A stretch of 64,000 bases of DNA from NCBI GenBank assembly GCA_019096065.1, contig JAGUCH010000002.1, positions 17,124,501 through 17,188,500 on the forward strand. The letters are read 5' to 3'. The notes under the pieces were generated by a model. The model saw nothing but the letters and a program-made list of their open reading frames with translations. It searched no databases and was not told the DNA's origin. This DNA is from Paracyclopina nana (lineage: Eukaryota; Arthropoda; Copepoda; Cyclopoida; Cyclopettidae). Both the position numbers and the translations under genes were made by a program. Below, one piece after another: positions 13,712 to 56,646 of this stretch; positions within the stretch are counted from its first letter, which is position 1; each line of letters starts with the position of its first letter.

Positions 13712-16700
13712 GATGCCTCCTTTCATGACTCGTGAAATCACCAGCTGCCTCAAAATATTTTGACCATGCCTGATGACCCTCTAGGACCTGGACACACTGG
13801 CCAACTCATCCTTGGTCTCACATGGAAGGCTGGAGTACAACCTCATTTTGGCTGCAGATCAGCTGGCTATAGTGAAAAACGAAGTTGCCTCCTTTCATGA
13901 CTTGTGAAATCACCAGCTGCCTCAAAATATTTTGACCATGCCTGATGTCCCTCTAGAACCTGCGCACACTGGCCAACTCATCCTTGATCTCACATGGAAG
14001 GCTGGAGGACAACCTCATTTTGGCTGCAGATCAGCTGGCTATAGTGAAAAACGAAGTTGCCTCCTTTCATGACTTGTGAAATCACCAGCTGCCTCAAAAT
14101 ATTTTGACCATGCCTGATGACCCTCTAGGACCTGGACACACTGGCCAACTCATCCTTGGTCTCACATGGAAGGCTGGAGGACAACCTCATTTTGGCTGCA
14201 GATCAGCTGGCTATAGTGAAATACGAAGTTGCCTCCTTTCATGACTTGTGAAATCACCAGCTGCCTCAAAATATTTTGACCATGCCTGATGACCCTCTAG
14301 GACCTGGACACACTGGCCAACTCATCCTTGGTCTCACATGGAAGGCTGGAGGACAACCTCATTTTGGCTGCAGATCAGCTGGCTATAGTGAAATACAAAG
14401 ATGCCTCCTTTCATGACTTGTGAAATCACCAGCTGCCTCAAAATATTTTGACCATGCCTGATGTCCCTCTAGAACCTGCGCACACTGGCCAACTCATCCT
14501 TGGTCTCACATGGAAGGCTGGAGGACAACCTCATTTTGGCTGCAGATCAGCTGGCTATAGTGAAATACGAAGTTGCCTCCTTTCATGACTTGTGAAATCA
14601 CCAGCTGCCTCAAAATATTTTGACCATGCCTGATGACCCTCTAGGACCTGGACACACTGGCCAACTCATCCTTGGTCTCACATGGAAGGCTGGAGGACAA
14701 CCTCATTTTGGCTGCAGATCAGCTGGCTATAGTGAAATACGAAGATGCCTCCTTTCATGACTTGTGAAATCACCAGCTGCCTCAAAATATTTTGACCATG
14801 CCTGATGTCCCTCTAGAACCTGCGCACACTGGCCAACTCATCCTTGATCTCACATGGAAGGCTGGAGGACAACCTCATTTTGGCTGCAGATCAGCTGGCT
14901 ATAGTGAAAAACGAAGTTGCCTCCTTTCATGACTTGTGAAATCACCAGCTGCCTCAAAATATTTTGACCATGCCTGATGACCCTCTAGGACCTGGACACA
15001 CTGGCCAACTCATCCTTGGTCTCACATGGAAGGCTGGAGGACAACCTCATTTTGGCTGCAGATCAGCTGGCTATAGTGAAATACGAAGTTGCCTCCTTTC
15101 ATGACTTGTGAAATCACCAGCTGCCTCAAAATATTTTGACCATGCCTGATGACCCTCTAGGACCTGGACACACTGGCCAACTCATCCTTGATCTCACATG
15201 GAAGGCTGGAGGACAACCTCATTTTGGCTGCAGATCAGCTGGCTATAGTGAAATACGAAGTTGCCTCCTTTCATGACTTGTGAAATCACCAGCTGCCTCA
15301 AAATATTTTGACCATGCCTGATGACCCTCTAGGACCTGGACACACTGGCCAACTCATCCTTGGTCTCACATGGAAGGCTGGAGGACAACCTCATTTTGGC
15401 TGCAGATCAGCTGGCTATAGTGAAATACGAAGTTTCCTCCTTTCATGACTTGTGAAATCACCAGCTGCCTCAAAATATTTTGACCATGCCTGATGACCCT
15501 CTAGGACCTGGACACACTGGCCAACTCATCCTTGGTCTCACATGGAAGGCTGGAGGACAACCTCATTTTGGCTGCAGATCAGCTGGCTATAGTGAAATAC
15601 AAAGATGCCTCCTTTCATGACTTGTGAAATCACCAGCTGCCTCAAAATATTTTGACCATGCCTGATGTCCCTCTAGAACCTGCGCACACTGGCCAACTCA
15701 TCCTTGGTCTCACATGGAAGGCTGGAGGACAACCTCATTTTGGCTGCAGATCAGCTGGCTATAGTGAAATACGAAGTTGCCTCCTTTCATGACTTGTGAA
15801 ATCACCAGCTGCCTCAAAATATTTTGACCATGCCTGATGACCCTCTAGGACCTGGACACACTGGCCAACTCATCCTTGGTCTCACATGGAAGGCTGGAGG
15901 ACAACCTCATTTTGGCTGCAGATCAGCTGGCTATAGTGAAATACGAAGATGCCTCCTTTCATGACTTGTGAAATCACCAGCTGCCTCAAAATATTTTGAC
16001 CATGCCTGATGTCCCTCTAGAACCTGCGCACACTGGCCAACTCATCCTTGATCTCACATGGAAGGCTGGAGGACAACCTCATTTTGGCTGCAGATCAGCT
16101 GGCTATAATGAAATACGAAGATGCCTCCTTTCATGACTCGTGAAATCACCAGCTGCCTCAAAATATTTTGACCATGCCTGATGACCCTCTAGGACCTGAG
16201 CACACTGGCCAACTCATCCTTGATCTCACATGGAAGGCTGGAGGACAACCTCATTTTGGCTGCAGATCAGCTGGCTATAGTGAAAAACGAAGTTGCCTCC
16301 TTTCATGACTCTTGAAATCACCAGCTGCCTCAAAATATTTTGACCATGCCTGATGACCCTCTAGGACCTGGACACACTGGCCAACTCATCCTTGGTCTCA
16401 CATGGAAGGCTGGAGGACAACCTCATTTTGGCTGCAGATCAGCTGGCTATAGTGAAAAACGAAGTTGCCTCCTTTCATGACTTGTGAAATCACCAGCTGC
16501 CTCAAAATATTTTGACCATGCCTGATGACCCTCTAGGACCTGGACACACTGGCCAACTCATCCTTGATCTCACATGGAAGGCTGGAGGACAACCTCATTT
16601 TGGCTGCAGATCAGCTGGCTATAGTGAAAAACGAAGTTGCCTCCTTTCATGACTTGTGAAATCACCAGCTGCCTCAAAATATTTTGACCATGCCTGATGA

Positions 16701-19700
16701 CCCTCTAGGACCTGGACACACTGGCCAACTCATCCTTGGTCTCACATGGAAGGCTGGAGGACAACCTCATTTTGGCTGCAGATCAGCTGGCTATAGTGAA
16801 ATACGAAGTTTCCTCCTTTCATGACTTGTGAAATCACCAGCTGCCTCAAAATATTTTGACCATGCCTGATGACCCTCTAGGACCTGGACACACTGGCCAA
16901 CTCATCCTTGGTCTCACATGGAAGGCTGGAGGACAACCTCATTTTGGCTGCAGATCAGCTGGCTATAGTGAAATACAAAGATGCCTCCTTTCATGACTTG
17001 TGAAATCACCAGCTGCCTCAAAATATTTTGACCATGCCTGATGTCCCTCTAGAACCTGCGCACACTGGCCAACTCATCCTTGGTCTCACATGGAAGGCTG
17101 GAGGACAACCTCATTTTGGCTGCAGATCAGCTGGCTATAGTGAAATACGAAGTTGCCTCCTTTCATGACTTGTGAAATCACCAGCTGCCTCAAAATATTT
17201 TGACCATGCCTGATGACCCTCTAGGACCTGGACACACTGGCCAACTCATCCTTGGTCTCACATGGAAGGCTGGAGGACAACCTCATTTTGGCTGCAGATC
17301 AGCTGGCTATAGTGAAATACGAAGATGCCTCCTTTCATGACTTGTGAAATCACCAGCTGCCTCAAAATATTTTGACCATGCCTGATGTCCCTCTAGAACC
17401 TGCGCACACTGGCCAACTCATCCTTGATCTCACATGGAAGGCTGGAGGACAACCTCATTTTGGCTGCAGATCAGCTGGCTATAATGAAATACGAAGATGC
17501 CTCCTTTCATGACTCGTGAAATCACCAGCTGCCTCAAAATATTTTGACCATGCCTGATGACCCTCTAGGACCTGAGCACACTGGCCAACTCATCCTTGAT
17601 CTCACATGGAAGGCTGGAGGACAACCTCATTTTGGCTGCAGATCAGCTGGCTATAGTGAAAAACGAAGTTGCCTCCTTTCATGACTCTTGAAATCACCAG
17701 CTGCCTCAAAATATTTTGACCATGCCTGATGACCCTCTAGGACCTGGACACACTGGCCAACTCATCCTTGGTCTCACATGGAAGGCTGGAGGACAACCTC
17801 ATTTTGGCTGCAGATCAGCTGGCTATAGTGAAACACGAAGTTGCCTCCTTTCATGACTCGTGAAATCACCAGCTTCCTCAACATATTTTGACCATGCCTG
17901 ATGACCCTCTAGGACCTGTGCACACTGGCCAACTCATCCTTGGTCTCACATGGAAGGCTGGAGGACAACCTCATTTTGGCTGCAGATCAGCTGGCTATAA
18001 TGAAATACGAAGATGCCTCCTTTCATGACTCGTAAAATCACCAGCTGCCTCAAAATATTTTGACCATGCCTGATGACCCTCTAGGACCTGTGCACACTGG
18101 CCAACTCATCCTTGGTCTCACATGGAAGGCTGGAGGACAACCTCATTTTGGCTGCAGATCAGCTGGCTATAGTGAAATACGAAGATGCCTCCTTTCATGA
18201 CTTGTGAAATCACCAGCTGCCTCAAAATATTTTGACCATGCCTGATGACCCTCTAGGACCTGGACACACTGGCCAACTCATCCTTGGTCTCACATGGAAG
18301 GCTGGAGGACAACCTCATTTTGGCTGCAGATCAGCTGGCTATAGTGAAATACGAAGATGCCTCCTTTCATGACTTGTGAAATCACCAGCTGCCTCAAAAT
18401 ATTTTGACCATGCCTGATGTCCCTCTAGAACCTGCGCACACTGGCCAACTCATCCTTGATCTCACATGGAAGGCTGGAGGACAACCTCATTTTGGCTGCA
18501 GATCAGCTGGCTATAATGAAATACGAAGATGCCTCCTTTCATGACTCGTGAAATCACCAGCTGCCTCAAAATATTTTGACCATGCCTGATGACCCTCTAG
18601 GACCTGTGCACACTGGCCAACTCATCCTTGGTCTCACATGGAAGGCTGGAGGACAACCTCATTTTGGCTGCAGATCAGCTGGCTATAGTGAAATACGAAG
18701 ATGCCTCCTTTCATGACTTGTGAAATCACCAGCTGCCTCAAAATATTTTGACCATGCCTGATGACCCTCTAGGACCTGGACACACTGGCCAACTCATCCT
18801 TGGTCTAACATGGAAGGCTGGAGGACAACCTCATTTTGGCTGCAGATCAGCTGGCTATAGTGAAAAACGAAGATGCCTCCTTTCATGACTTGTGAAATCA
18901 CCAGCTGCCTCAAAATATTTTGACCATGCCTGATGACCCTCTAGGACCTGTGCAGACTGGCCAACTCATCCTTGGTCTCACATGGAAGGCTGGAGGACAA
19001 CCTCATTTTGGCTGCAGATCAGCTGGCTATAGTGAAATACGAAGTTGCCTCCTTTCATGACTCGTGAAATCACCAGCTGCCTCAAAATATTTTGACCATG
19101 CCTGATGACCCTCTAGGACCTGGACACACTGGCCAACTCATCCTTGGTCTCACATGGAAGGCTGGAGGACAACCTCATTTTGGCTGCAGATCAGCTGGCT
19201 ATAGTGAAATACGAAGTTGCCTCCTTTCATGACTCGTGAAATCACCAGCTGCCTCAAAATATTTTGACCATGCCTGATGACCCTCTAGGACCTGTGCAGA
19301 CTGGCCAACTCATCCTTGGTCTCACATGGAAGGCTGGAGGACAACCTCATTTTGGCTGCAGATCAGCTGGCTATAGTGAAATACGAAGTTGCCTCCTTTC
19401 ATGACTCGTGAAATCACCAGCTGCCTCAAAATATTTTGACCATGCCTGATGACCCTCTAGGACCTGGACACACTGGCCAACTCATCCTTGGTCTCACATG
19501 GAAGGCTGGAGGACAACCTCATTTTGGCTGCAGATCAGCTGGCTATAGTGAAAAACGAAGTTGCCTCCTTTCATGACTTGTGAAATCACCAGCTGCCTCA
19601 AAATATTTTGACCATGCCTGATGACCCTCTAGGACCTGTGCAGACTGGCCAACTCATCCTTGGTCTCACATGGAAGGCTGGAGGACAACCTCATTTTGGC

Positions 19701-22700
19701 TGCAGATCAGCTGGCTATAGTGAAATACGAAGTTGCCTCCTTTCATGACTCGTGAAATCACCAGCTGCCTCAAAATATTTTGACCATGCCTGATGACCCT
19801 CTAGGACCTGGACACACTGGCCAACTCATCCTTGGTCTAACATGGAAGGCTGGAGGACAACCTCATTTTGGCTGCAGATCAGCTGGCTATAGTGAAAAAC
19901 GAAGATGCCTCCTTTCATGACTTGTGAAATCACCAGCTTCCTCAAAATATTTTGACCATGCCTGATGACCCTCTAGGACCTGGACACACTGGCCAACTCA
20001 TCCTTGGTCTCACATGGAAGGCTGGAGGACAACCTCATTTTGGCTGCAGATCAGCTGGCTATAGTGAAAAACGAAGTTGCCTCCTTTCATGACTTGTGAA
20101 ATCACCAGCTGCCTCAAAATATTTTGACCATGCCTGATGACCCTCTAGGACCTGTGCAGACTGGCCAACTCATCCTTGGTCTCACATGGAAGGCTGGAGG
20201 ACAACCTCATTTTGGCTGCAGATCAGCTGGCTATAGTGAAATACGAAGTTGCCTCCTTTCATGACTCGTGAAATCACCAGCTGCCTCAAAATATTTTGAC
20301 CATGCCTGATGACCCTCTAGGACCTGGACACACTGGCCAACTCATCCTTGGTCTAACATGGAAGGCTGGAGGACAACCTCATTTTGGCTGCAGATCAGCT
20401 GGCTATAGTGAAAAACGAAGATGCCTCCTTTCATGACTTGTGAAATCACCAGCTTCCTCAAAATATTTTGACCATGCCTGATGACCCTCTAGGACCTGGA
20501 CACACTGGCCAACTCATCCTTGGTCTCACATGGAAGGCTGGAGGACAACCTCATTTTGGCTGCAGATCAGCTGGCTATAGTGAAAAACGAAGTTGCCTCC
20601 TTTCATGACTCGTGAAATCACCAGCTTCCTCAAAATATTTTGACCATGCCTGATGACCCTCTAGGACCTGGACACACTGGCCAACTCATCCTTGGTCTCA
20701 CATGGAAGGCTGGAGGACAACCTCATTTTGGCTGCAGATCAGCTGGCTATAGTGAAACACGAAGTTGCCTCCTTTCATGACTCGTGAAATCACCAGCTTC
20801 CTCAACATATTTTGACCATGCCTGATGACCCTCTAGGACCTGTGCACACTGGCCAACTCATCCTTGGTCTCACATGGAAGGCTGGAGGACAACCTCATTT
20901 TGGCTGCAGATCAGCTGGCTATAATGAAATACGAAGATGCCTCCTTTCATGACTCGTAAAATCACCAGCTGCCTCAAAATATTTTGACCATGCCTGATGA
21001 CCCTCTAGGACCTGTGCACACTGGCCAACTCATCCTTGGTCTCACATGGAAGGCTGGAGGACAACCTCATTTTGGCTGCAGATCAGCTGGCTATAGTGAA
21101 ATACGAAGATGCCTCCTTTCATGACTTGTGAAATCACCAGCTGCCTCAAAATATTTTGACCATGCCTGATGACCCTCTAGGACCTGGACACACTGGCCAA
21201 CTCATCCTTGGTCTAACATGGAAGGCTGGAGGACAACCTCATTTTGGCTGCAGATCAGCTGGCTATAGTGAAAAACGAAGATGCCTCCTTTCATGACTTG
21301 TGAAATCACCAGCTGCCTCAAAATATTTTGACCATGCCTGATGACCCTCTAGGACCTGTGCAGACTGGCCAACTCATCCTTGGTCTCACATGGAAGGCTG
21401 GAGGACAACCTCATTTTGGCTGCAGATCAGCTGGCTATAGTGAAATACGAAGTTGCCTCCTTTCATGACTCGTGAAATCACCAGCTGCCTCAAAATATTT
21501 TGACCATGCCTGATGACCCTCTAGGACCTGGACACACTGGCCAACTCATCCTTGGTCTAACATGGAAGGCTGGAGGACAACCTCATTTTGGCTGCAGATC
21601 AGCTGGCTATAGTGAAAAACGAAGATGCCTCCTTTCATGACTTGTGAAATCACCAGCTGCCTCAAAATATTTTGACCATGCCTGATGACCCTCTAGGACC
21701 TGTGCAGACTGGCCAACTCATCCTTGGTCTCACATGGAAGGCTGGAGGACAACCTCATTTTGGCTGCAGATCAGCTGGCTATAGTGAAATACGAAGTTGC
21801 CTCCTTTCATGACTCGTGAAATCACCAGCTGCCTCAAAATATTTTGACCATGCCTGATGACCCTCTAGGACCTGGACACACTGGCCAACTCATCCTTGGT
21901 CTCACATGGAAGGCTGGAGGACAACCTCATTTTGGCTGCAGATCAGCTGGCTATAGTGAAAAACGAAGTTGCCTCCTTTCATGACTCGTGAAATCACCAG
22001 CTTCCTCAAAATATTTTGACCATGCCTGATGACCCTCTAGGACCTGGACACACTGGCCAACTCATCCTTGGTCTCACATGGAAGGCTGGAGGACAACCTC
22101 ATTTTGGCTGCAGATCAGCTGGCTATAGTGAAATACGAAGATGCCTCCTTTCATGACTTGTGAAATCACCAGCTGCCTCAAAATATTTTGACCATGCCTG
22201 ATGTCCCTCTAGAACCTGCGCACACTGGCCAACTCATCCTTGATCTCACATGGAAGGCTGGAGGACAACCTCATTTTGGCTGCAGATCAGCTGGCTATAA
22301 TGAAATACGAAGATGCCTCCTTTCATGACTCGTGAAATCACCAGCTGCCTCAAAATATTTTGACCATGCCTGATGACCCTCTAGGACCTGGACACACTGG
22401 CCAACTCATCCTTGGTCTAACATGGAAGGCTGGAGGACAACCTCATTTTGGCTGCAGATCAGCTGGCTATAGTGAAAAACGAAGATGCCTCCTTTCATGA
22501 CTTGTGAAATCACCAGCTGCCTCAAAATATTTTGACCATGCCTGATGACCCTCTAGGACCTGTGCAGACTGGCCAACTCATCCTTGGTCTCACATGGAAG
22601 GCTGGAGGACAACCTCATTTTGGCTGCAGATCAGCTGGCTATAGTGAAATACGAAGTTGCCTCCTTTCATGACTCGTGAAATCACCAGCTGCCTCAAAAT

Positions 22701-25306
22701 ATTTTGACCATGCCTGATGACCCTCTAGGACCTGGACACACTGGCCAACTCATCCTTGGTCTAACATGGAAGGCTGGAGGACAACCTCATTTTGGCTGCA
22801 GATCAGCTGGCTATAGTGAAAAACGAAGATGCCTCCTTTCATGACTTGTGAAATCACCAGCTGCCTCAAAATATTTTGACCATGCCTGATGACCCTCTAG
22901 GACCTGTGCAGACTGGCCAACTCATCCTTGGTCTCACATGGAAGGCTGGAGGACAACCTCATTTTGGCTGCAGATCAGCTGGCTATAGTGAAATACGAAG
23001 TTGCCTCCTTTCATGACTCGTGAAATCACCAGCTGCCTCAAAATATTTTGACCATGCCTGATGACCCTCTAGGACCTGGACACACTGGCCAACTCATCCT
23101 TGGTCTCACATGGAAGGCTGGAGGACAACCTCATTTTGGCTGCAGATCAGCTGGCTATAGTGAAAAACGAAGTTGCCTCCTTTCATGACTCGTGAAATCA
23201 CCAGCTTCCTCAAAATATTTTGACCATGCCTGATGACCCTCTAGGACCTGGACACACTGGCCAACTCATCCTTGGTCTCACATGGAAGGCTGGAGGACAA
23301 CCTCATTTTGGCTGCAGATCAGCTGGCTATAGTGAAATACGAAGATGCCTCCTTTCATGACTTGTGAAATCACCAGCTGCCTCAAAATATTTTGACCATG
23401 CCTGATGTCCCTCTAGAACCTGCGCACACTGGCCAACTCATCCTTGATCTCACATGGAAGGCTGGAGGACAACCTCATTTTGGCTGCAGATCAGCTGGCT
23501 ATAATGAAATACGAAGATGCCTCCTTTCATGACTCGTGAAATCACCAGCTGCCTCAAAATATTTTGACCATGCCTGATGACCCTCTAGGACCTGAGCACA
23601 CTGGCCAACTCATCCTTGATCTCACATGGAAGGCTGGAGGACAACCTCATTTTGGCTGCAGATCAGCTGGCTATAGTGAAAAACGAAGTTGCCTCCTTTC
23701 ATGACTCTTGAAATCACCAGCTGCCTCAAAATATTTTGACCATGCCTGATGACCCTCTAGGACCTGGACACACTGGCCAACTCATCCTTGGTCTCACATG
23801 GAAGGCTGGAGGACAACCTCATTTTGGCTGCAGATCAGCTGGCTATAGTGAAACACGAAGTTGCCTCCTTTCATGACTCGTGAAATCACCAGCTTCCTCA
23901 ACATATTTTGACCATGCCTGATGACCCTCTAGGACCTGTGCACACTGGCCAACTCATCCTTGGTCTCACATGGAAGGCTGGAGGACAACCTCATTTTGGC
24001 TGCAGATCAGCTGGCTATAATGAAATACGAAGATGCCTCCTTTCATGACTCGTAAAATCACCAGCTGCCTCAAAATATTTTGACCATGCCTGATGACCCT
24101 CTAGGACCTGTGCACACTGGCCAACTCATCCTTGGTCTCACATGGAAGGCTGGAGGACAACCTCATTTTGGCTGCAGATCAGCTGGCTATAGTGAAATAC
24201 GAAGATGCCTCCTTTCATGACTTGTGAAATCACCAGCTGCCTCAAAATATTTTGACCATGCCTGATGACCCTCTAGGACCTGGACACACTGGCCAACTCA
24301 TCCTTGGTCTAACATGGAAGGCTGGAGGACAACCTCATTTTGGCTGCAGATCAGCTGGCTATAGTGAAAAACGAAGATGCCTCCTTTCATGACTTGTGAA
24401 ATCACCAGCTGCCTCAAAATATTTTGACCATGCCTGATGACCCTCTAGGACCTGTGCAGACTGGCCAACTCATCCTTGGTCTCACATGGAAGGCTGGAGG
24501 ACAACCTCATTTTGGCTGCAGATCAGCTGGCTATAGTGAAAAACGAAGTTGCCTCCTTTCATGACTCGTGAAATCACCAGCTTCCTCAAAATATTTTGAC
24601 CATGCCTGATGACCCTCTAGGACCTGTGCACACTGGCCAACTCATCCTTGGTCTCACATGGAAGGCTGGAGGACAACCTCATTTTGGCTGCAGATCAGCT
24701 GGCTATAGTGAAATACGAAGATGCCTCCTTTCATGACTTGTGAAATCACCAGCTGCCTCAAAATATTTTGACCATGCCTGATGACCCTCTAGGACCTGTG
24801 CAGACTGGCCAACTCATCCTTGGTCTCACATGGAAGGCTGGAGGACAACCTCATTTTGGCTGCAGATCAGCTGGCTATAGTGAAATACGAAGATGCCTCC
24901 TTTCATGACTTGTGAAATCACCAGCTGCCTCAAAATATTTTGACCATGCCTGATGACCCTCTAGGACCTGTGCAGACTGGCCAACTCATCCTTGGTCTCA
25001 CATGGAAGACTGGAGGACAACCTCATTTTGGCTGCAGATCAGCTGGCTATAGTGAAATACGAAGATGCCTCCTTTCATAACTCGTGAAATCACCAGCTGC
25101 CTCAAAATATTTTGACCATGCCTGATGACCCTCTAGGACCTGTGCAGACTGGCCAACTCATCCTTGGTCTCACATGGAAGACTGGAGGACAACCTCATTT
25201 TGGCTGCAGATCAGCTGGCTATAGTGAAAAACGAAGATGCCTCCTTTCATGACTCGTGAAATCACCAGCTGCCTCAAAATATTTTGACCATGCCTGATGA
25301 CCCTCT
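13712..25306 (+). repeat. 172-bp satellite array, block 2 (68 monomers)
   Basis: 67 consecutive full periods of exactly 172 bases separate the first (13712) and last (25236) unit starts, with no net indel. Variant monomers recur in order, showing higher-order repeats. A monomer with CTCAACATATTTTGACC is at about 17881, 20805 and 23901 (17 and 18 units apart). An ATACAAAGATGCC monomer recurs every 7 or 8 units in the first half. The last unit breaks off into unique sequence (TTCTGGACTGTCC). Confidence 0.97.
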
Positions 25307-25605
25307 AGGTTCTGGACTGTCCTGTCCTGGACTGGCTGTAGAGGAGCTGGCAATAGTGAAAATCGAAGAGTCATTTTGGAGGACTTGTGACCCAGTTGGA
25401 GCTGCACCCAATTGCAAACTCATCCTCAACCTCTCTACAGTGGTTAGAGCCACTAATTGCCTCACACAGAATCAACAAATGTGAACAGAACATTAAGTGC
25501 TTCTGGCTGAACAAACAATCCATAAAATAATTCAAATCATCACAACAATATGTGACTTGTGTTTACTGTGATATGTATTTAAAACATATTTTTTTCTCTT
25601 TTTAG

Positions 25606-25651
25606 ATTCTATTGGATATTAACCCGAAATAATCAATACTAAAGTTTCACT
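25606..25651 (+). promoter_or_regulatory. Conserved splice acceptor and short leader before the Helitron ORF
   Basis: TTTTTTTCTCTTTTTAG|ATTCTA (25605/25606) is matched in copy 2 at 47666/47667. With the donor at 10480 (or 13591) it would splice out the whole satellite array as a leader intron, placing the first ATG 46 bases into the second exon. Confidence 0.55.
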
Positions 25652-26473
25652 ATGTCTAAAAAGGATTTTCCTGATAAAGACTTTAAAAACAAGGATTTTT
25701 CATCATTTGTTAATCAAATGTCTAATCAACAGCTAAAGATAATTAGAAATATCCTGAAAAGAAACACAGTTTTTTCATCAACTAAAGATAAAAAATTTGT
25801 GCTTAAACATTACATTAAAGAGTTTGACAACCCTCTGGCTGAATTGAAAGCTCATTTGGAGCAATCAATTGAAAATTGTCATATAGAGCCTGGAGAGCTA
25901 TCTCCTTTGGAAGAGTGCATAGGCAAAAAGTCAAACACTCACATAACGCAACCGAAAGACCTCTTGACCTCAAAAACTAGATTCAATGCCAAGAGAGACA
26001 GACAATTATTAATCTCTCATTATTGTACATTTGACAACCCTCTGGCTGAATTGAAAGCTCATTTGCAGCAGTCAATTGAAAATCGGCATACAGAGCCAGT
26101 TGAGATCTCTTATTTGGAAGATTTCATTGGCAAATTGTCAAATATACAAATTATTCTCATCAAGCAAGCATTGAAAAGAACAACACAATTTCGCTCCACA
26201 AGAGATAAAAAATTTCTGTTGGATCATTTTATCCTGCTTGAAAACCCATTAGCTGAATTGAAGGCTCTTCTGAGTAATTCAATTGAAAAGCTAAATAATG
26301 AGAGTGATGAAATTGGAAATTTTGAGGCATTTGTCCAAAATCTACCAGCTAACAACATCAGAGAATTGAGGAGTTTTCTGAATAGGAATACAAAATTTGA
26401 CTGTGCCAAAGATAAAAAGTTCCTGATCAAGCACTATCAAAAATTTCTCCTTTCTCTCCATTGGTCAAGTTAA
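25652..26473 (+). CDS. Helitron ORF, N-terminal 69-residue repeat modules (four)
   Basis: Starts ATGTCTAAAAAGGATTTT, the first ATG after the conserved acceptor, and is shared with copy 2. The protein is made of four modules of about 69 residues. Each has the pattern LEDFIGKxSN...LK(R/S)xTxFxxxRDKxFLxxHY, then xxFDNPLAELKAHLEQSIEN and a short acidic linker. Modules look alpha-helical and highly charged; I do not recognise the fold. The frame ends at TGA/TAA near 26471, but the next module sequence (KLKEDMASSF) continues in the -1 frame. The same break exists in copy 2, so the true product probably runs on into the USP region. Copy 2 has six modules. Confidence 0.72.
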   Translation: MSKKDFPDKDFKNKDFSSFVNQMSNQQLKIIRNILKRNTVFSSTKDKKFVLKHYIKEFDNPLAELKAHLEQSIENCHIEPGELSPLEECIGKKSNTHITQPKDLLTSKTRFNAKRDRQLLISHYCTFDNPLAELKAHLQQSIENRHTEPVEISYLEDFIGKLSNIQIILIKQALKRTTQFRSTRDKKFLLDHFILLENPLAELKALLSNSIEKLNNESDEIGNFEAFVQNLPANNIRELRSFLNRNTKFDCAKDKKFLIKHYQKFLLSLHWSS

Positions 26474-27404
26474 AGGAGGATATGGCAAGTTCTTTTGAAT
26501 TCAAGGGAGCAGTGCTAGAAAATCCTCCAGGGGCAAATCTCTGTTTCCTCAATGGAACACTGAATGCCCTCTTGGCATGCAAAAGATTCAGCAAATTGCC
26601 AGAGAGCCAAGTGACAGTCCTCTGTCAAAATTCTTGTGCAAAATGTTGAATCCATCAGGACAATTAAATGCAAGGCTGATCAGGAATTGGATCGCATCTT
26701 TTGCTCCAGCATTTGCTGGTTCAGAACAAATGGATCCTTCAGAGCTTTTGGTATCTTTGATTCCTCAGTTTCCAGCTTTGGAAGAATTAACCAAACTCAA
26801 AATCCTGACAAATTTTCACTGTTCAGAGTGCTTAAACATCAATTGTTCCACGACAGATGTTATGTCATTCTTGAGTGAGTCCTTGCAAGGCAAATCTGTC
26901 AGTGACATTTTTGAAAAAAACAGGCATGGCATTTTGGATGAGTACAATTGCCAATTGTGCAATTGCACCACAAGACATCATCTGGAGGAAGAATTTTCTG
27001 ATATTCCAGAATTGTTGATAGTCTGCCTGAAAAGATTCGATTTTGATGGGAACAAGAGAAATGATCCTGTTTACCCATCCAGTTGCCTGAGGATTGCTAA
27101 TGCCAAGTTAGTTCTAAGGGCTGTTATTGAGCACCATGGTTTGACCACTGGATCAGGTCACATCACTACTTCAATTCCTTCCTTAAGTGGTTGGATAAAG
27201 TGTGATGACATGTGTGTTCAGCAATCTTCCATGCCTATGCAAGGCTACATTTTCTTCTATGAGAAAGTGGGTTCTGATGAGGCTCACAATCCTCCAGATC
27301 TTGCTCAAGCTGAAATTCCAACTAGGCAAAGGAAAAGCTCTAAAAAGTTGTCAAAGAGGATGTGGTCAATTTTGATCTTGATGACTTACATGCCAAAGAG
27401 TTGA
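26464..27404 (+). CDS. Helitron ORF, ubiquitin-specific-protease (C19-type) domain
   Basis: The Cys box PPGANLCFLNGTLNALLAC (26530-26580) matches USP G-N-x-C-F-x-N-x-x-L. A zinc-binding pair HCSEC...YNCQLC is present. A later strand LLIVCLKRFDFDGNKRNDPV is typical of USPs, and the His/Asp boxes TGSGHIT...SGWIKCDDMCV (near 27150-27215) and GYIFFYEK complete the fold. All three catalytic residues are therefore in place, so an active deubiquitinase is plausible. The reading frame is broken at about 26590-26605 and again near 27349 (one base short in CTCTAAAAAG compared with copy 2). The cysteine protease usually described in Helentrons is OTU-type, which this is not. Confidence 0.72.
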
Positions 27405-27981
27405 TGCCCTGGCAGCCATCTCTAAAGGTGAAAAGTTTGTAGATCTTTTGAAGACAATCCAATCATAAAGGCTGGGCTGAAAATGCATGCTGAGCTGAAA
27501 AGCTGGCAGCCAGAAAGGCCATGTGATGTCTGCAAAGAGTCTTGGTTTGATACCAATATTAAGCTCTCCAAGGGACTTTACATGTGTGAAAGGTGCAGGA
27601 AAGAGTCCTATAAGGAAAAATCAGTGCTTACCTTTTCGGAAGCCAATGACATGATTCCTGGTCCAATTCCTGACTGCTTGAGAGATCTCAACTTTGTTGA
27701 GGAATCAAGCATCAAGCTCATAAAGCCATTTTTGCGCATTTACAAAAGACAAGGTGGAGGAATAGGCTGCAAAGGCCACTGCATCAGTTTTTCACAAAAT
27801 GTGACTGAGTTTGCAAAAACTCTGCCCTGGGAATTGATGAGCTACCCATAATCATCCTTCAAAAGGCTGGTGATGTGAGCTCTAAAAAGTTCAAAGCAGA
27901 TGCAAAAAAATTCGAGTTGCTCTTGAGTGGCTGAAGCAAAATAACCCAGATTATTGCAACATCTCAATCAATGAGGAAAAG
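27405..27981 (+). CDS. Helitron ORF, zinc-ribbon and DUF6570-like linker to Rep
   Basis: The segment reads KMHAELKSWQPERPCDVCKE...GLYMCERCRKE (two CxxC pairs), then MIPGPIPDCLRDLNFVEESS...FLRIYKRQGGGIGCKGHCIS and FAKTLP. This is the conserved region (DUF6570) that precedes the Rep domain in Helitron transposases. It then continues IIILQKAGDVSSKKFKADAK and ALEWLKQNNPDYCNISINEE into the large ORF. Frames change at about 27390-27410, 27446-27449 (T-run one shorter than copy 2), 27825-27835 and the A-run at 27904-27910. In each case one base is missing. Confidence 0.72.
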
Positions 27982-30900
27982 TTGTCACAATATGAATCTG
28001 GAATAATTGAAAATGTCAACACCCTCAATGCCAATGAGGTACTTGTTGAGGAAACCAATTACACTCCAGTATTAAATGAGGACCGAGCTCTTCTGGAGGC
28101 AATCAATTCCTGGCATGATAATGACTTTGACCTACCTAGGCCTACTTCAACTGTAAATGAGTCAATTGAACATGAGAAAGTTGAAACATATGTCAAGTCT
28201 GCACTAAGCGAAATTGAGAAAAATGGCAAAAAGGAATTTCACTGGGTTGACACTGGTGATAAGCCTGAATGTGAATACCTTCCTGGATTTTTCACAAAGG
28301 CGTTTCCTAGGCTGTTTCCAGATGGCAAAGGAGATATCACAAGGCCAGTTCTTGGGAAAACTCCACCAATGACCAATTGGATCCAGCACCTCCTCAGATG
28401 TGACAGGAGATTTGCCAATGATCCATTATTCTTATTAATGGCTGTCAACATGCTGCAAAAACACAAAGCACTCACATTTGGCAATTTGTACTGCCAAAGA
28501 GTCTTAAGTGACATCACTGTGCAGCAGCTGAAGGAGAAACTGAAAGAAAATGATACATCAGTGTTGAAAAGTCTTTACTGTTTTTCCAATGCTATCAAAG
28601 GTAGCCAGCAGTTTTTCAGCCAACACATATCAAAAAGCTATAGCTTTCTCAGGGATATGAAAATCTCAAGTCAAGGCCAAGAAATGTTCAACTTGTTTCT
28701 GACATTTAGTGCTGCTGACATTCACTGGAGCTCGCTCCATGAATTGATACCAGGCCATGATGCCTATCTAGGCAAAACTGTAGTCAAAGACTTGAAACAA
28801 ATTCCTGACTCATCTGACCCCAATGATTTCATTGATGAGCCAACTGACTATGCTTTGCGCACAAAAGCTATCAATGAAAATGTTGACATTGTCAATGCTT
28901 ATTTCCAAAAGAGAATTGAGCTTTTCTGGAAGCATGTTCTAAAGCCAATTTTTGGCGGCAAAGAATACATACAAAGGTATGAGTTCCAGCATCGGGGTGC
29001 CATTCATTGTCATATGGTGATGTCGTGTGATTCTGGTCCATCTTGTGATGACTTAGATAATGCACTTGAGGCCTTGCCCAAAATCAAAGATGATATGACT
29101 GAGGAAAAAAAGTTGAAGGCAAAAGAGGACATTGAGATTATTCTCAAGGCTAGGAGAAAAATGGTTGACTTTACCTCTCTCCATGCTGGTATTAAGGCTG
29201 TTCATCCAGAGCTGAACCCAGTTCAATGGCCAAGCCCTTTTGGGCAAAATGTCAGCAAGCCAAAGTCAAATGTGCTCAGAGAAGACTTTTCTTCTATTGC
29301 CAATGACAAAAATGCTCTATATGACATGTACACTCGGCTGGTAAACAGAGTATTACTACACCACTGTAGAATGTTCAGTTGCCAGGATGTCAAAAGAGCC
29401 AAAACTGTCACTTTCAAGGACAAGGACGGCGTACTGCGTAAAAAAAGAGAGTTCCCATGCCGCTTTAATTTTCCAGAGAAAATCTTTGGGTTTTCAACCT
29501 CTGAGTTTAAGCATGGAGGACTTGAAAAGGTCACAATGCAGCAGGGTGGTCACTCTGATGAGAGCATAAATCCTACTATCAAGGGGGCAGCCTATGTTGA
29601 TACAGATTTAAAGCATCTCAGAAATCACCCAAACATTGTTTGTCACATTCCAGAAATTGCTCTTCTTCATGGAGCAAACATTGACAACAAAGAGATCAAA
29701 AGCTTTGCTCAACTGCAGCGCTACTTGATGAAATATGTTATGAAGCCTGAAACTTCATCGGACATGTTTTCAAATCTTGCATGCACAGTGGCTCAAAAGC
29801 TGAAAGATGGCGAGACTCTGAAGAGTGCTGCTCAAAAGATCCTTCTTAAAAGCATAGGTGAACGTGACATGAGCCTTAATGAGTGCGCTCTGATAGCTCA
29901 AAACTTACCCTATGTGATTTATAGCAAAAGGCCTCGGCCAGCTAATTTGAAGGGGTCAAAAAAAGTTAAAATGACAGTTGCATCAGATGATGATGAAATT
30001 GCTGAGGATGACTGGGCTCAAGCCTATTGGAGCAGGGATAAACATCCTGGCTATCACAAACTTTGTGATGACTACCCTGATGAATTTTCCTACTCCAAGC
30101 ATCCCAAAGACATTTCGCTAAGAGAGTTTATGAACAACTTCTCCAAAAGTTGGAAATATTCTCCAAATGCAAATGTCTTTCCTTACTTTATACCAACCTA
30201 CAGATATGTTGTTCAAAAAAGCAAGCCCAATTATCAGGAGTTTTGCAAAAATCTGTTGCTCCAGGACAAGCCTGGATGCTATTTGGACAATGTGGGCACT
30301 CAGTTTGAGTCATGTTCTGAGGAACTCAAAGACTTTGTTGAGAATAGTCCATTTTGTCCAAGGTTGGTGAAGGAGGAGTATCAAGAGAGTCAATTTGAAA
30401 TTAAAGAGCCAGAAAAAGACAAGCCTAAAAAACCCATTGAGGGGAATGCGCTTGATGAGCTTTACATTGAAAATCCATCCAAGGTCTCTAATGCTCCCAG
30501 AGATGACTGGATGGAATTATGTGCTCATGATAATGACAAATATGATGCTGGCCCTGATGAGCATGCTGAAAATCCAGATTGTCCTCTTGAGGATGAAATT
30601 CTGGATGACAATGGCTACAATTGGTATTCTGATGCCAAGGAGCTTGGAATGACTCTTGCTTCATTCAAAGAGATCACAAAGTGGCTGGACTTTCAAAAGA
30701 AGTCCTTTAAACTGCCAAATTTTGATCATGTCAATTTTGACACATCTCTGCTGAATAGCAAACAAAAAATGGCCTATGATTTCATGACTGCATGGGTGAT
30801 CAAAAAAGTTGAAAATCCAGACAAAACTCCACCAGTGTTCTTGAACATTTCAGGCAGGGCTGGATGTGGCAAAAGCTTTTGGCTGAATTGTCTTGCACAG

Positions 30901-32217
30901 TTCATCAGAAGTCATGCTGGCAACAATTTTTTGAAGATCTGTGCTCCTACTGCATCAGCAGCATTCTTGGTGAATGGGTCAACCATACACAGCTTACTCA
31001 AGCTTGATATCATCAAGAACACCAGAGCAGAGATCAGCCCCTTGACTGGTGACACGCTGAAAAACATGCAAGATGATTTCAAAGATGTCCAACTTTTGGT
31101 CATTGATGAAAAGTCAATGCTTGGTCTTCATATGTTGTACTGTATTCACTCTAGGCTGAAAGAGCTTAAGGGCAAAAGTCTTAATGCTGAGTCTGGACCT
31201 GCCTTTGGTGGGGTCTCCATTGTGCTCATGGGTGACTTTGCTCAGCTGCCTAGCGTTGGCGACAATGCTCTATACACAAACACAACAAAAAACTTGCCTC
31301 ATGTTCAAATCATGGGCAAAACTCTGTTCAATCAGTTCTCACAGACAATCATTTTTGATCAGATCATGAGACAGCAGGGTGATGATCAGCTGAAATTCAG
31401 GCAATGTCTTGATAGCTTGGCTTCGGGATCATTCACTATTGCAGATTGGGAGTTTCTTAAGCAGAGAGAGTTGTACAATGAAACTATGTTTACTCATGAG
31501 CAAAGACAAGACTTCCTCTTGAATGGCATTTTGCTGTGTGCTCTCAGAGATGACATGACTAACTACAACTCAATGAGAATCAAAGCCATTGGCACTCCAG
31601 TTGCCAGCATAGCCAGTGAAAATAACTGTGCTGAGGCCGCCAAGGCAAATTCAATCAAGGCTCAAGGTTTGCCCTCTCAAATCTCAATAGCCAATAAATG
31701 TCAAGTCATTTTGACAACAAACACATGGAAGGAGGCTGGGCTCACCAATGGTGCCAGAGGTGAAGTCAAATTCATCCTCTACACTAGAGGGAAAAAGCCA
31801 AGTTCTCTGCCAGCAGCTGTTATCGTTCAATTTGACCAATACAATGGGCCAAGCTATTGTGATGACATCCCTCGATGTGTGCCAATTGTGCCCATCACAA
31901 AGACTTGGTACAGCAACAAGCAGTTGTGCACAAGGGTCATGGTTCCTTTGGAGCCAGCTTATGCAATGACCATTCACAAAAGCCAAGGAAGGACTCTGGA
32001 TAAAGTGATCTTGAACATTAGCAAAAGTGAGTTTGCCAACGGTCTAGCTTACACTGCTATAAGCAGGGCAAAAAGGATAGAAGACTTGGCTTTCAATCCT
32101 ATGCCTAATTGCATCAGGTTCACTAATATTTACAGAGCAAAGATTTTCAAGGATAGGAGATTGCAAGATACAAAAGAGAAAATCAATGATGAACAATTTC
32201 AAGCTGATCAACTATAG
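27982..32217 (+). CDS. Helitron Rep/helicase transposase (Y2 HUH Rep plus Pif1-type helicase)
   Basis: An uninterrupted 1,411-codon frame that is really the C-terminal part of the longer ORF; it has no ATG start, and TTG-TCA continues from upstream residues. The Rep domain (Helitron_like_N) has the two-His motif EFQHRGAIHCHMV at about residues 334-346 and the paired-tyrosine motif YLMKYVMK at 581-588. These nick DNA and hold the covalent 5' link in rolling-circle transposition. The helicase has Walker A GRAGCGKS (958-965), Walker B LLVIDEKSM (about 1038-1046), GDFAQLPSVGD, and the late motifs AYAMTIHKSQGRTLDKV and LAYTAISRAKR. All catalytic residues are present, so this copy could be active. 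It differs from copy 2 by only about eight residues over the first ~1,090. Confidence 0.95.
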   Translation: MSQYESGIIENVNTLNANEVLVEETNYTPVLNEDRALLEAINSWHDNDFDLPRPTSTVNESIEHEKVETYVKSALSEIEKNGKKEFHWVDTGDKPECEYLPGFFTKAFPRLFPDGKGDITRPVLGKTPPMTNWIQHLLRCDRRFANDPLFLLMAVNMLQKHKALTFGNLYCQRVLSDITVQQLKEKLKENDTSVLKSLYCFSNAIKGSQQFFSQHISKSYSFLRDMKISSQGQEMFNLFLTFSAADIHWSSLHELIPGHDAYLGKTVVKDLKQIPDSSDPNDFIDEPTDYALRTKAINENVDIVNAYFQKRIELFWKHVLKPIFGGKEYIQRYEFQHRGAIHCHMVMSCDSGPSCDDLDNALEALPKIKDDMTEEKKLKAKEDIEIILKARRKMVDFTSLHAGIKAVHPELNPVQWPSPFGQNVSKPKSNVLREDFSSIANDKNALYDMYTRLVNRVLLHHCRMFSCQDVKRAKTVTFKDKDGVLRKKREFPCRFNFPEKIFGFSTSEFKHGGLEKVTMQQGGHSDESINPTIKGAAYVDTDLKHLRNHPNIVCHIPEIALLHGANIDNKEIKSFAQLQRYLMKYVMKPETSSDMFSNLACTVAQKLKDGETLKSAAQKILLKSIGERDMSLNECALIAQNLPYVIYSKRPRPANLKGSKKVKMTVASDDDEIAEDDWAQAYWSRDKHPGYHKLCDDYPDEFSYSKHPKDISLREFMNNFSKSWKYSPNANVFPYFIPTYRYVVQKSKPNYQEFCKNLLLQDKPGCYLDNVGTQFESCSEELKDFVENSPFCPRLVKEEYQESQFEIKEPEKDKPKKPIEGNALDELYIENPSKVSNAPRDDWMELCAHDNDKYDAGPDEHAENPDCPLEDEILDDNGYNWYSDAKELGMTLASFKEITKWLDFQKKSFKLPNFDHVNFDTSLLNSKQKMAYDFMTAWVIKKVENPDKTPPVFLNISGRAGCGKSFWLNCLAQFIRSHAGNNFLKICAPTASAAFLVNGSTIHSLLKLDIIKNTRAEISPLTGDTLKNMQDDFKDVQLLVIDEKSMLGLHMLYCIHSRLKELKGKSLNAESGPAFGGVSIVLMGDFAQLPSVGDNALYTNTTKNLPHVQIMGKTLFNQFSQTIIFDQIMRQQGDDQLKFRQCLDSLASGSFTIADWEFLKQRELYNETMFTHEQRQDFLLNGILLCALRDDMTNYNSMRIKAIGTPVASIASENNCAEAAKANSIKAQGLPSQISIANKCQVILTTNTWKEAGLTNGARGEVKFILYTRGKKPSSLPAAVIVQFDQYNGPSYCDDIPRCVPIVPITKTWYSNKQLCTRVMVPLEPAYAMTIHKSQGRTLDKVILNISKSEFANGLAYTAISRAKRIEDLAFNPMPNCIRFTNIYRAKIFKDRRLQDTKEKINDEQFQADQL

Positions 32218-32549: not shown

Positions 32550-33369
32550 TTAAAGCGAGGGCCACAGCAAAAAAGGTGCTGCAGCTGCTGCTTGCAGCTG
32601 CAGCCTCAGGGCCAGTTGCTGGGCCTGGACGTTGGCCATCAAATTGGGCTGAGCCTGCATAGGCAAAAGGGGGGCAGCCAATTGTTGTTGTTGTTGCTGC
32701 TGCAGCGGTTGTTGTTGTTGCTGCTGGCCTGCATGGCAACCACCACAGCACTGGTGCTGGTGGCCACCACCTCCATTGCTTCCACGACCTCTATTGCCTC
32801 CGCGACCTCCACGGCCTCCACGATTTCCCAGGCCTCCTCGATTTCCACGGCCTCCTTGATTTCCACGGCCTCTCCAACCTGCATGCCCTCTAGGACCTCC
32901 ATTGCTTCTGCGACCTCCAGCACCTTTGTCAGGGGCTGCTGGAGCAGGAGCCTCTGTGGCCTCCCATGTGGCAGAGTTGGAGGCTGCTGTTGCTGCAGCT
33001 GCCATTTTGGCTTCTTTGGCAGCCTCCCTCATGGCCTTATTGGCCATTTTTTGGGCCAAATTTCTTTTTCGATTTCTGAAGCAGAACAAATTTTTTTGAA
33101 GATTTGAAAAAATGGAAAATTAAATTACATTACCTTTCTTGCCTCGCCTTTGCCCTTTGGATGGCCTTGTTCATGACATTTTCAGAAATGTTCATGTTTT
33201 TAGCCATCTGAACAAGGCCATCCTCATGACTTGTGGTGGCTTCCTGGCTGATCTGGGGCTCTGGAGGTGTCACTGCCACCTCCACCTCCATTACCTCCTC
33301 TTTAGGCTGGGCATTAGCCCTGGTAGCCCTCTTCCCTCCTCTTGCTGCTCCTGCCTTCTTCTTTGCCAT
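32550..33369 (-). CDS. Helitron-borne RGG-box, Gln-rich protein (spliced, convergent)
   Basis: Minus strand. Exon 1 is 33369-33134 (ATG at 33369), with donor AAAG|GTAATG; a 58-bp intron (33133-33076) has acceptor GCTTCAG|AAATCG; exon 2 is 33075-32550 (TAA). The spliced length is 762 nt, 253 residues. The order is: a basic start MAKKKAGAARGGKRATRAN; an acidic linker with EVMEVEVAVTPPEP; a charged helical stretch (QMAKNMNISENVMNKAIQRA); an Ala-rich stretch; an RGG/GGRG box of about 60 residues; a Cys/His cluster HQHQCCGGC; Gln runs; and a hydrophobic end. AATAAA overlaps the stop (32551-32546). RGG boxes bind RNA or G-rich DNA; a function in transposition is only inferred. Copy 2 keeps the splice sites and frame, with indels in multiples of three. 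Confidence 0.72.
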
Positions 33370-33825
33370 CTTGATTAATAATGTGGAAAAGCTGACCAGA
33401 ATGGTTAGCACATGCGCTCATCAACATGGACCAAAGAACAAGCCAGTAGCAGCAATTTTTTAGTGGAATATTTACAGTAATAAAATACTTCATTTGTATT
33501 CTCATAGTTAATAAATGAGTAGATGAGTAAAACCAACTTCTACAAACAAATGGAAAAGGCATTTTTGAAAGAGTACAGATTTTTTATCACAAAAGATATT
33601 TTAAGGAAATTCACAACTCCAATTCACTATGTAACGATCAGGGTCATTTCCTTTTTGCCAGCTAAGCCTAACTGGCACCAACAAATGTGGCATGGACAGT
33701 TGGCTTATCTGGTTGAGGCCAATGCTGATGTGCTGCTTGGCTTGCTCTGACCTGGCATGCCAATGTCAAGTTGCTGAGAAATAGTACCAAACTTAATAAA
33801 AAGTGAAACATATAATCTTGTTAAT
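33370..33825 (-). promoter_or_regulatory. Upstream region of the RGG gene
   Basis: Conserved with copy 2 (55813-56260), including GCATGGACAGTTGGCTTATC and TGGTTGAGGCCAATGCT. It presumably contains the RGG gene promoter. An in-frame upstream ATG at 33411 would add 14 residues. No named motif seen. Confidence 0.4.
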
Positions 33826-34139: not shown

Positions 34140-34520
34140 AAGCCATTGGAGGGACAAACTTTTTCGCTAGATGGCGCTTTTAGGGCAAGTATATTTGAGA
34201 AAACTGTCGCGCGCGAAAATTGTCACGTGATCACGAGCGGCAATTTGATTGGCTGATCGGCGGAGCCAGGCTAGAAAATTTTTGTTTCAACCATGAAAAG
34301 CTTGGAAATTTGCGTGAGTTGCATAGGGTTTTATGGCTCGAAAGGGTGCCATTTTATCCATAGAATATGTCATATTAATACAGCTTTTAGTATTAGTGCA
34401 CCAAAAGCCAAAAAATAGCCCATTTTTGATCGCCTATGTAGCGCAGCCATGTCAAATGTACTGGGCAAAGCTGCCGGGCTAGATGGCGCATGGAATCTAG
34501 TGACTTTACGCCTTTGGCTT
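34140..34520 (+). mobile_element. MITE inserted in Helitron copy 1 (empty site in copy 2)
   Basis: AAGCCA...TGGCTT, 381 bp, flanked by AT (34138-34139 and 34521-34522). Copy 2 has the uninterrupted site GGCCAATTTGTCCAG at 56457-56470, which defines both ends exactly. Same family as 306-1025 and 7205-7585. Confidence 0.88.
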
Positions 34521-34599: not shown

Positions 34600-34648
34600 A
34601 AACCGTAGGCCCGCCCCCCGCTGTCCATTTATGGACGCCTTTACCTAG
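34600..34648 (+). other. Right terminus of Helitron copy 1
   Basis: AACCGTAGGCCCGCCCCCCG, then hairpin GTCCAT-TT-ATGGAC (34623-34636), 8 spacer bases and CTAG (34645-34648). GGCCCGCCCCCC is the inverted complement of the first 12 bases at the left end of copy 2. Identical in copy 2 at 56600-56646. Confidence 0.85.
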
Positions 34649-35653: not shown

Positions 35654-36112
35654 TCAATGGTAGGGTATAACATAAGATTCTTTTTTAAATATACCCTGAG
35701 GCAAAACTTTATGTAGCACCCATCCATCCTTGGTAGGGTTGCTCAAGTTCAACTTCAAAATTTTCATGTAAAAATCCATATTTGTGTCCTTTCCCCCAAA
35801 AACATACAAATAGCCTTGATCTTCCAGCACCCTTGCAGTTCTGATTGTTAATGGGTAGTCAGGCAAATTAGTCCAAGTGTTTGAGGTAAAGTTGAACAAT
35901 TCCACTGTATTTTTAAGGAAGTCACCGACAGTGACAAAATACCTATTCCCCATGCCATCTTTGTAACCAGTGCATCCCTGAGAACTTACTCTTTCACCAG
36001 CTCGAGACTTCACCACTGAATAAGAGTCAGTATCAAATCGGTATTCAAACAGATGTGAGTGTAATACATCTGGATTAGCTGTGCCAATAAAATAGACTCT
36101 GTTTGTGTCTCC
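35654..36112 (-). pseudogene. Kelch gene copy B, 3' part of interrupted terminal exon
   Basis: Over 95% like 8113-8570 by eye, ending at the same TGA. The frame is open here, but the sequence stops matching at 36112 (GTCTCC), where the 6.7-kb repeat element begins. The rest of the exon is at 42839-42872 and 56647-56721. Confidence 0.85.
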
Positions 36113-36329
36113 TATATGCGCGGTATATATAACGTTACTGGGACATAGAATTGCACACCCGGGCTATTGGGACCCGAATGAACACGATCAATTTTAAGGC
36201 CCTTAGGCCTAGAAATATCAACTTTTTAAATTTTTTTCATAAAATATAGGCCTTCAGGCCCCTCTGGGCCAAATTTCATAAAAATCCAAGGCCTTCATTT
36301 TTTTCATGTTTTATTGGGACATGAGCATG

Positions 36330-42872: not shown

Positions 42873-42899
42873 GGGGGGCGGGCCGAAGGCCCGCCCCCC
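42873..42899. other. GC-rich hairpin at left end of Helitron copy 2
   Basis: A perfect 12-bp stem (GGGGGGCGGGCC) with GAA loop. The same 12 bases occur inverted 23 bases before the right-end hairpin, so they form an asymmetric terminal inverted repeat. Copy 1 lacks this hairpin at its left end. Confidence 0.9.
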
Positions 42900-43100: not shown

Positions 43101-44164
43101 GACACCTAACATAATTAAATTTTTTCTGCTACTTTATTGAGCACATTAGAGTAGGCTGTAGGCCTGCCAATTAACATGAAATTTTAATGGAAGGCCGTAG
43201 GCCTGCCAATAAACATACGGCCTGCCATTACATAGTAATTGGGGGGTGGGCTACTTTTTTGCTCAGATATGCGACATCAAAATCAAAATTCCGATTTTTC
43301 CTGTAAACCTTTTCCTAAGTGACATATTTTTTACAACAAAAAAAGACTTTGCAGACAAAAAAAGGACTTTTTATGCGTAGATTGTGTGACATTCGGCCGT
43401 TTTTGTGTATGTGGTCGGAAAAGTGGTTGTTTTTTAAATAGCCTGAAAAATTGTTATCGTTTTTGGCCTGAAAAATTGTGGTTGCAAAAGTTGTTGTTTT
43501 TGGCCTGAAAATTTTTCCGAGCGAGTTCGAGTTGCCTTTAATGGAAAACGAGCTTGGTCAAGTCGATTTAGAGGCTTACGAGTTCATCCAATTTTTCATC
43601 AATTTTGCCGATTTTTTTATTTAAGTTTTAACGAGCTGCCAAAATTTTTTTCGAGTTTGGCCAAAAAAATTTTGAGCGAGTTCCGAGTTGGACGCTTATT
43701 CAGTCTGAGCCAAGTTTTGCTTTCGAGTTACCAAGTCGAGTTCGAGCTCGTTCCATCAATAGTTGGTTAGCTGAAAAAAAACAACATCATCAGCTGTAAT
43801 GAGCGCGGTTTCGATACAGCCTGTTGGTGTAACACCTGTAATTCCCGTGACTTTCTGAGAAAATTTGGCAGTGATTCAAAAGAGCCTCAAGTTGCAGAAA
43901 TCAGGCGAAATTGACGGGAAAAGCAGCACAGTGCTGAGTATTGCCATGGAAAATTGGCTAAACTCTAGAAATACCTGGAAAATATTTTCAGAATAAGGAG
44001 CATAAACGCCAAGAAAAAAGGTGAGGTTACTCTGAATTCTTTGTCTGAAAAATAAAAAAAGGATATTTTCAGTTCTGGCTCAATGGAGAAAAATTGGTCA
44101 ATCCAGGAAGGCTGTAGGACAACCTCTTTTTTGCTGCAGAATGATGGCTATAGTGAAAAACGAA
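43101..44164 (+). promoter_or_regulatory. Helitron copy 2 leader and presumed promoter region
   Basis: Contains GGCC-GTA-GGCCTGCCA hairpin motifs near 43150-43230 as in copy 1. The middle is largely unlike copy 1. It becomes alignable again at about 44010-44095, with the donor AAAAAG|GTGAGG at 44020/44021. No other gene seen. Confidence 0.5.
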
Positions 44165-56599: not shown

Positions 56600-56646
56600 A
56601 CCGTAGGCCCGCCCCCCGCTGTCCATTTATGGACGCCTTTACCTAG
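56600..56646 (+). other. Right terminus of Helitron copy 2
   Basis: ACCGTAGGCCCGCCCCCCG, hairpin GTCCAT-TT-ATGGAC (56621-56634), spacer, CTAG (56643-56646), then kelch exon sequence TTTTAGTTTCTAAG. Confidence 0.9.

Follow-up and report, generated by a model that had tools for sequence, protein, structure and literature searches.

Deubiquitinases of the OTU and VTD classes have already been published on Helitrons, in the portions of PMC4067079 and PMC9741609 available to us, and the latter reports in vitro cleavage of ubiquitin by the VTD domains of zebrafish Helitrons and proposes a protective role for them. A peptidase C19 domain on a DDE transposase is likewise in print for one protein, XP_001314237.1 of Trichomonas vaginalis, which combines Transposase_11 with Peptidase C19 according to an excerpt of PMC2836005. 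Among the rolling-circle elements themselves, a passage of PMC4067079 defines Helitron2 by asymmetric terminal inverted repeats, palindromes at the ends, a Rep/helicase without endonuclease, and T-rich flanks. Here we describe a 64,000-nt stretch of the Paracyclopina nana genome (the window, C2:17124501-17188500, where C2 is the window's own contig in a 91.95-Mb, 10-contig genome) with two copies, A and B, of an element in which a ubiquitin-specific protease (USP, peptidase C19) precedes Rep and helicase. Eighty matches in this genome to Chitin_bind_4, a family linked to arthropod cuticle, are in keeping with an arthropod source. With a probability of roughly 0.6, we read it as a Helitron2-like transposon whose Rep-helicase bears a USP deubiquitinase on its N-terminal side, with a repeat region before it, in a predicted protein of about 2,190 residues in which the USP would act in cis. 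In the open-access papers searched we recognised no description of a USP on a Helitron; within that literature, a USP on a Rep-helicase is a third class beside OTU and VTD.

The USP domain and its fusion to Rep and helicase

Between positions 25652 and 32217 of the window, copy A has coding sequence, all of it in the same orientation, for an N-terminal repeat region, the USP, a zinc-binding region with DUF6570, Rep and a PIF1 helicase, spread over five open pieces of the plus strand (Table 1), and the size given above covers this whole coding layout. Within these pieces Pfam matched UCH (PF00443) at 2.3e-13, DUF6570 at 1.3e-12, Helitron_like_N at 2.3e-22 and PIF1 at 1.4e-17. An earlier note, made from the letters of this stretch, had described a USP region running into DUF6570, Rep and Pif1 across one-base frame breaks, and the Pfam matches and frames of copy A agree with it. 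The same note had placed a Cys box, CxxC pairs, a His box and an Asp box in one orientation and order, with catalytic residues kept in both window copies; indeed, we locate the Cys codon of copy A at 26542, CxxC pairs beginning at 26820 and 26949, the His codon at 27159 and the Asp codon at 27204, and copy B retains all of these residues.

As to the class of the protease, a point on which the earlier note had proposed comparing C19 with OTU profiles, the best protease profile is USP/C19. The strongest UCH score comes from copy C (profile 8-254 at 1.2e-17), while neither OTU families nor VTD (herpes tegument type) protease families matched the five copy A pieces at E<=1 in Pfam, by which we reject the OTU class. 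The Cys-box piece of copy A by itself gave no UCH match, because it is short and lies in another frame, and three USP proteins yielded zero matches in NCBIfam. The best match among PDB sequences is ubiquitin carboxyl-terminal hydrolase 15, at 2.2e-6 for copy A and 5.9e-7 for copy C, in an alignment that spans the His and Asp boxes. Chance resemblance to a USP is rejected by the profile scores and by a diverged relative, copy F, found by its USP at 3.0e-31.

Is the USP then part of the Rep-helicase protein, or merely its neighbour? A single 342-aa open frame of copy C carries the catalytic USP from Cys box through Asp box, whereas copies A and B have the Cys box in one frame and the USP body in another. 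Natural frames that hold both UCH and DUF6570 are found by Pfam in copy D (403 aa; UCH 83-254 at 3e-11, DUF6570 at 1.4e-12) and copy E (340 aa; UCH 134-254 at 4.3e-10, DUF6570 at 2.9e-13), and one 270-aa frame of copy F takes in the USP from its His box onward, Asp box included, and continues into DUF6570; Pfam scores DUF6570 only there. Because these three copies join USP to DUF6570 in natural frames, the fusion is taken to be real and, judged by those frames, the USP is fused to the Rep-helicase and not merely adjacent to it. A USP made as a separate protein just upstream of Rep would suit the ATG at 26481, which follows shortly on the N-region stop at 26473, and the different frames occupied by the pieces of copy A, yet it is hardly credible beside the joined frames of D, E and F, on which a separate upstream gene is rejected. 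Read by eye, moreover, the last N-terminal repeat of copy A apparently goes on around that ATG in the frame of the USP piece.

Copies, selection and rival readings

A profile search of the genome returned seven Helitron_like_N matches at six loci, every one on the window's own contig, and searches for the USP protein (14 matches) and for DUF6570 (12 matches) led to the same six loci. Every Helitron Rep locus found in the 92-Mb genome, six in all, thus has the USP upstream of Rep. Copies B, C, D and E are mutually 99.3-99.5% identical over 8.6-10.5 kb by blastn, and copy A matches them at about 95% identity across some 8.1 kb; between A and B, 1.7% of coding sites differ as against 9.0% of 3' noncoding sites. 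Copy F has a weak Helitron_like_N match in two pieces (4.8e-4 and 5.3e-4, below cut-off) and protein identities of 38-48% in the USP, 68% in DUF6570 and 43-80% in pieces of the Rep-helicase; by these values it is much older than the other copies, and it keeps the same domain order despite a USP identity of about 38%. Scans of viral contigs confirmed no relatives.

Selection was estimated as the ratio of nonsynonymous to synonymous substitution rates (dN/dS), by Nei-Gojobori counting of A against B, C and D, with E left out. For the USP the ratio is 0.19-0.21, a coarse estimate since the three comparisons share one split. Over 281 codons, the A-B comparison holds 16 synonymous and 12 nonsynonymous changes, and with 0.77 assumed as the neutral share, a binomial test of 12/28 nonsynonymous returns p ~1e-4. 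On these counts the USP is under selection against amino-acid change. The ratios elsewhere are 0.03 for DUF6570, 0-0.03 for Rep, 0.07-0.11 for the helicase and, from six changes, 0.25 for the middle region.

Several observations nevertheless weigh against the reading of a USP-bearing Rep-helicase. The USP is less constrained than Rep or helicase, the UCH match in the piece of copy F that precedes its 270-aa frame is below the Pfam cut-off at 4.6e-4, so that the case for a USP in F depends on its resemblance to A and C, and AlphaFold models of the USP body and the N region from single sequences were uninformative (mean predicted local distance difference test score of 38). In the assembly none of the six copies is open from N region to helicase, which refines the single protein of about 2,190 residues envisaged in the earlier note. 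The copies' pieces are instead joined by one-base frame breaks, mostly in short homopolymer runs, and these breaks in every copy read might be real, leaving six relics and a fusion that was functional in an ancestor only. This reading carries substantial weight, although we put it clearly below an even chance. It gains from the 3' noncoding part of B-E (~1,650 sites), where pairs differ by 0-1 one-base indels, and from two copies of a second, DDE-type element described below, whose 4,089 compared sites hold 76 substitutions and 2 one-base indels, as these low indel counts speak against errors everywhere in the assembly. In the coding part of B-E (~5,830 sites), on the other hand, each pair has 9-19 substitutions beside 7-14 one-base indels, a ratio expected of consensus errors, and such errors in near-identical repeats are what the comparison of these copies suggests. 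Most of these indels lie in runs of three or more (six of seven in B-C, eight of ten in C-D). Furthermore, the breaks of copy A are confined to the part from N region to DUF6570, and its Rep-helicase is open over 1,443 aa. A programmed frameshift or small introns are not supported, because by eye the N-USP and DUF6570-Rep breaks fall at different positions in A-E than in F; some breaks are common to all of A-E, which leaves room for either.

The selected USP also has to be set against a host fragment captured passively and without a role. Helitrons often pick up pieces of genes, and yet we consider such a capture very unlikely, given a USP at every Rep locus including that of the diverged copy F, dN/dS values near 0.2, and the absence of any close relative, and hence of a close host source, from the eight UCH loci that score best in the genome (best E 2.8e-4). 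It is also unlikely, if less so, that the task of the USP, rather than removal of ubiquitin, is to process the polyprotein or to act on a different ubiquitin-like modifier. For Helentron proteases, the available text of PMC4067079 does suggest cleavage of Rep/helicase subunits, whereas the nearest solved relatives of the present domain are deubiquitinases of the USP15/USP4 kind and its CxxC pairs are retained. If the element does encode a tethered deubiquitinase, this USP would remove ubiquitin in cis, most likely shielding the Rep-helicase from proteasomal turnover during nicking and unwinding of DNA; it might, in addition, deubiquitinate chromatin or proteins of replication and repair at the nick. 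Self-protection from the proteasome would be the simplest mechanism, and we count in its favour the ubiquitin cleavage and the protection proposed for VTD Helitrons in the accessible part of PMC9741609.

Element ends and neighbouring features

The element has the marks of the Helitron superfamily, in that a Rep with two tyrosines and an HUH-like motif shares one frame with a PIF1-type helicase. Canonical Helitrons start with 5'-TC, end with CTRR at the 3' side and insert between A and T; here a 3' CTAG is present, but the element opens with a G-run hairpin, and in B-E T's border it on either side. Helitron2 and Helentrons, for their part, insert within TT. At the 5' end of B-E the G-rich hairpin follows the T's; it is perfect except in C, which differs by four bases of the G-run, and its arm recurs inverted near the 3' end. 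All of A-E finish with a palindrome and CTAG, followed by T's. Copy A is without the 5' hairpin, its similarity to the other copies beginning around 9312, and the ends of copy F were not found. An apurinic/apyrimidinic (AP) endonuclease, which in Helentrons lies at the C-terminus of the Rep/helicase, had no Pfam match at E<=1 in 27886-32214, where the frame stops soon after the helicase, and none of the five copy A pieces matched an endonuclease. The asymmetric terminal repeats with palindromes (5' hairpin in B-E, 3' arm in A-E) and the lack of an AP endonuclease match make Helitron2 the better fit than Helentron, so that the rolling-circle Rep/PIF1 element of the earlier note is upheld as a Helitron and placed with Helitron2 rather than with endonuclease-bearing Helentrons. 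By the definitions in the consulted portion of PMC4067079, the element would thus be Helitron2-like.

Searching the genome with the last 107 bases of copy B, with 40 of 135 candidates scored, gave at least 41 rows: A-E and, spread over C1-C6 and C9, 36 others with identities of 80-98%. Since a 46-base piece beside another row is among the 36, at least 35 further places are left, given at 80-92% identity, and these may be non-autonomous or related elements. Many of them lie in C5:6.8-7.4 Mb and C4:8.6-9.4 Mb, and an example is at L053:1346.

Table 1. Positions of features in the window, unless another contig or locus is named
Feature	Position	Strand	Remark
Copy A, N-terminal region	25652-26473	+	~70-aa repeats, read by eye; open piece 25643-26473
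Copy A, USP (peptidase C19) domain	26482-27341	+	frame break between Cys box and body
Copy A, Cys-box piece	26416-26649	+	open frame
Copy A, USP body	26499-27404	+	open frame
Copy A, zinc-binding CxxC pairs and most of DUF6570	27432-27851	+	CxxC pairs at 27522 and 27585
Copy A, end of DUF6570, Rep (Helitron_like_N), PIF1 helicase	27886-32217	+	open, 1,443 aa
Copy A, presumed HUH-like motif of Rep	28990-29019	+	
Copy A, presumed two-Tyr motif of Rep	29716-29751	+	
Copy A, presumed Walker A of helicase	30853-30876	+	
Copy A, presumed Walker B of helicase	31099-31119	+	
Copy A, 172-bp satellite arrays	10569-12760, 13680-25309	+	5' part of element
Copy A, convergent gene	32550-33417	-	open reading frames 33417-33130 and 33119-32550; Gly/Arg- and Gln-rich product
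Copy A, 3' end	34608-34648	+	subterminal inverted repeat, palindrome, CTAG, then T's
Copy B, 5' end	42873-42899	+	G-rich perfect hairpin after T's
Copy B, 172-bp satellite array	44094-47391	+	
Copy B, N region, USP, DUF6570, Rep, helicase	47713-54654	+	
Copy B, USP	48889-49122, 49388-49915	+	Cys-box and later USP open reading frames
Copy B, DUF6570	49921-50325	+	
Copy B, Rep and helicase	50360-53764, 53761-54654	+	
Copy B, 3' end	56606-56646	+	same 41 bases as copy A
Rep loci, all on C2	C 14.66 Mb, D 17.25 Mb, E 17.26 Mb, F 14.49 Mb		A and B in window
DDE-type transposon with separate ~300-aa USP open reading frame	L053:4753-9132, L062:45-4801	-	also L054, L055

The 5' part of A-E holds a 172-bp satellite (81, 20, 10, 12 and 11 unit matches respectively), whose arrays are flanked, by eye, by donor-like and acceptor-like splice sites; the satellite may lie inside an intron of a 5' leader. 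The convergent minus-strand gene has similar open reading frames in B and C (A, B and C compared) and no significant Pfam match. Positions 34215-34414, 200 nt within the 3' part of copy A, recur inverted at 782-981 (86%), related arms lie at 7281-7453, and copy A seems by eye to contain an insertion absent from copy B. Just outside copy A, a kelch-like (by eye) open reading frame on the minus strand, 35654-36163, is probably part of a host gene.

A second USP-bearing transposon and known systems

In the genome, UCH also marks a repeated open reading frame of about 300 aa. In locus L053 it lies downstream of frames with weak matches to C2H2, HTH_Tnp_4 and DDE_Tnp_4 (0.0023-0.035, all below cut-off), and the unit is repeated in L054 (97.9%) and L055 (81.9%). 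The transposase piece recurs in 11 rows at nine distinct loci, at all of which the USP frame is found 1.7-2.0 kb away on the same strand; the loci extend to lineages with identities of about 40%, among them L062, which has the same layout. Fourteen of the 23 USP rows are without a transposase match nearby and are mostly fragments, but they include the intact frame of L056. Among L053, L054, L055 and L056, the USP has a dN/dS of 0.11-0.22 in five of six pairs, L053-L054 having one change only. The USPs of the Helitron and of the DDE element show hardly any similarity (best E 0.002, DDE1 to F), and the DDE1 USP is closer to one host-type locus (3.7e-5) than to a Helitron USP. Given this low similarity, separate uptake by the two elements is likely. 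The catalytic Cys falls in the same column in four aligned USP sequences. It is a tentative reading, somewhat short of even odds, that in this lineage a USP was acquired, and retained under selection, by each of two unrelated transposon classes, one rolling-circle and Helitron2-like, the other DDE-type; if true, it would point to ubiquitin hindering transposition so strongly that selection favoured the same answer on two occasions. Two USP-bearing transposons in one genome suggest that DNA transposition in general meets ubiquitin as an obstacle, or uses it as a tool, an idea already in print in the available parts of PMC2836005 and PMC9741609, and that some jumping genes may bring their own means to resist or use the cell's ubiquitin system.

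How does the window's element then compare with known systems? With Helitron2, as far as the excerpt of PMC4067079 describes it, it shares asymmetric terminal repeats, palindromes at both ends, T-rich flanks and the absence of a detected endonuclease, and it departs from the single Rep/helicase open reading frame given there in having a USP and repeat region on the protein and a second gene on the opposite strand. Its 3' subterminal repeat is set back 29 bases from the CTAG end, less than the 38-60 given for Helentron relatives in that excerpt. Like the OTU and VTD Helentrons in the consulted text of PMC4067079 and PMC9741609, it is a rolling-circle element encoding a papain-like deubiquitinase with the same suggested benefit; unlike them its deubiquitinase is of the USP class, and the AP endonuclease carried by VTD elements was not found here. 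Cellular USP15, USP4 and USP5 (PDB) align with it in the catalytic core and the His and Asp boxes, but the element's USP is distant from cellular USPs (best E 5.9e-7) and sits on a transposon protein. Ginger1 (OTU or Ulp1) and Mutator (Ulp1) also pair a transposase with a ubiquitin or SUMO protease, from other families on both sides, in the part of PMC2836005 at hand. The same text mentions the Trichomonas protein singly, and there too a C19/USP domain sits on the transposase protein, of the DDE type in that case and rolling-circle here.

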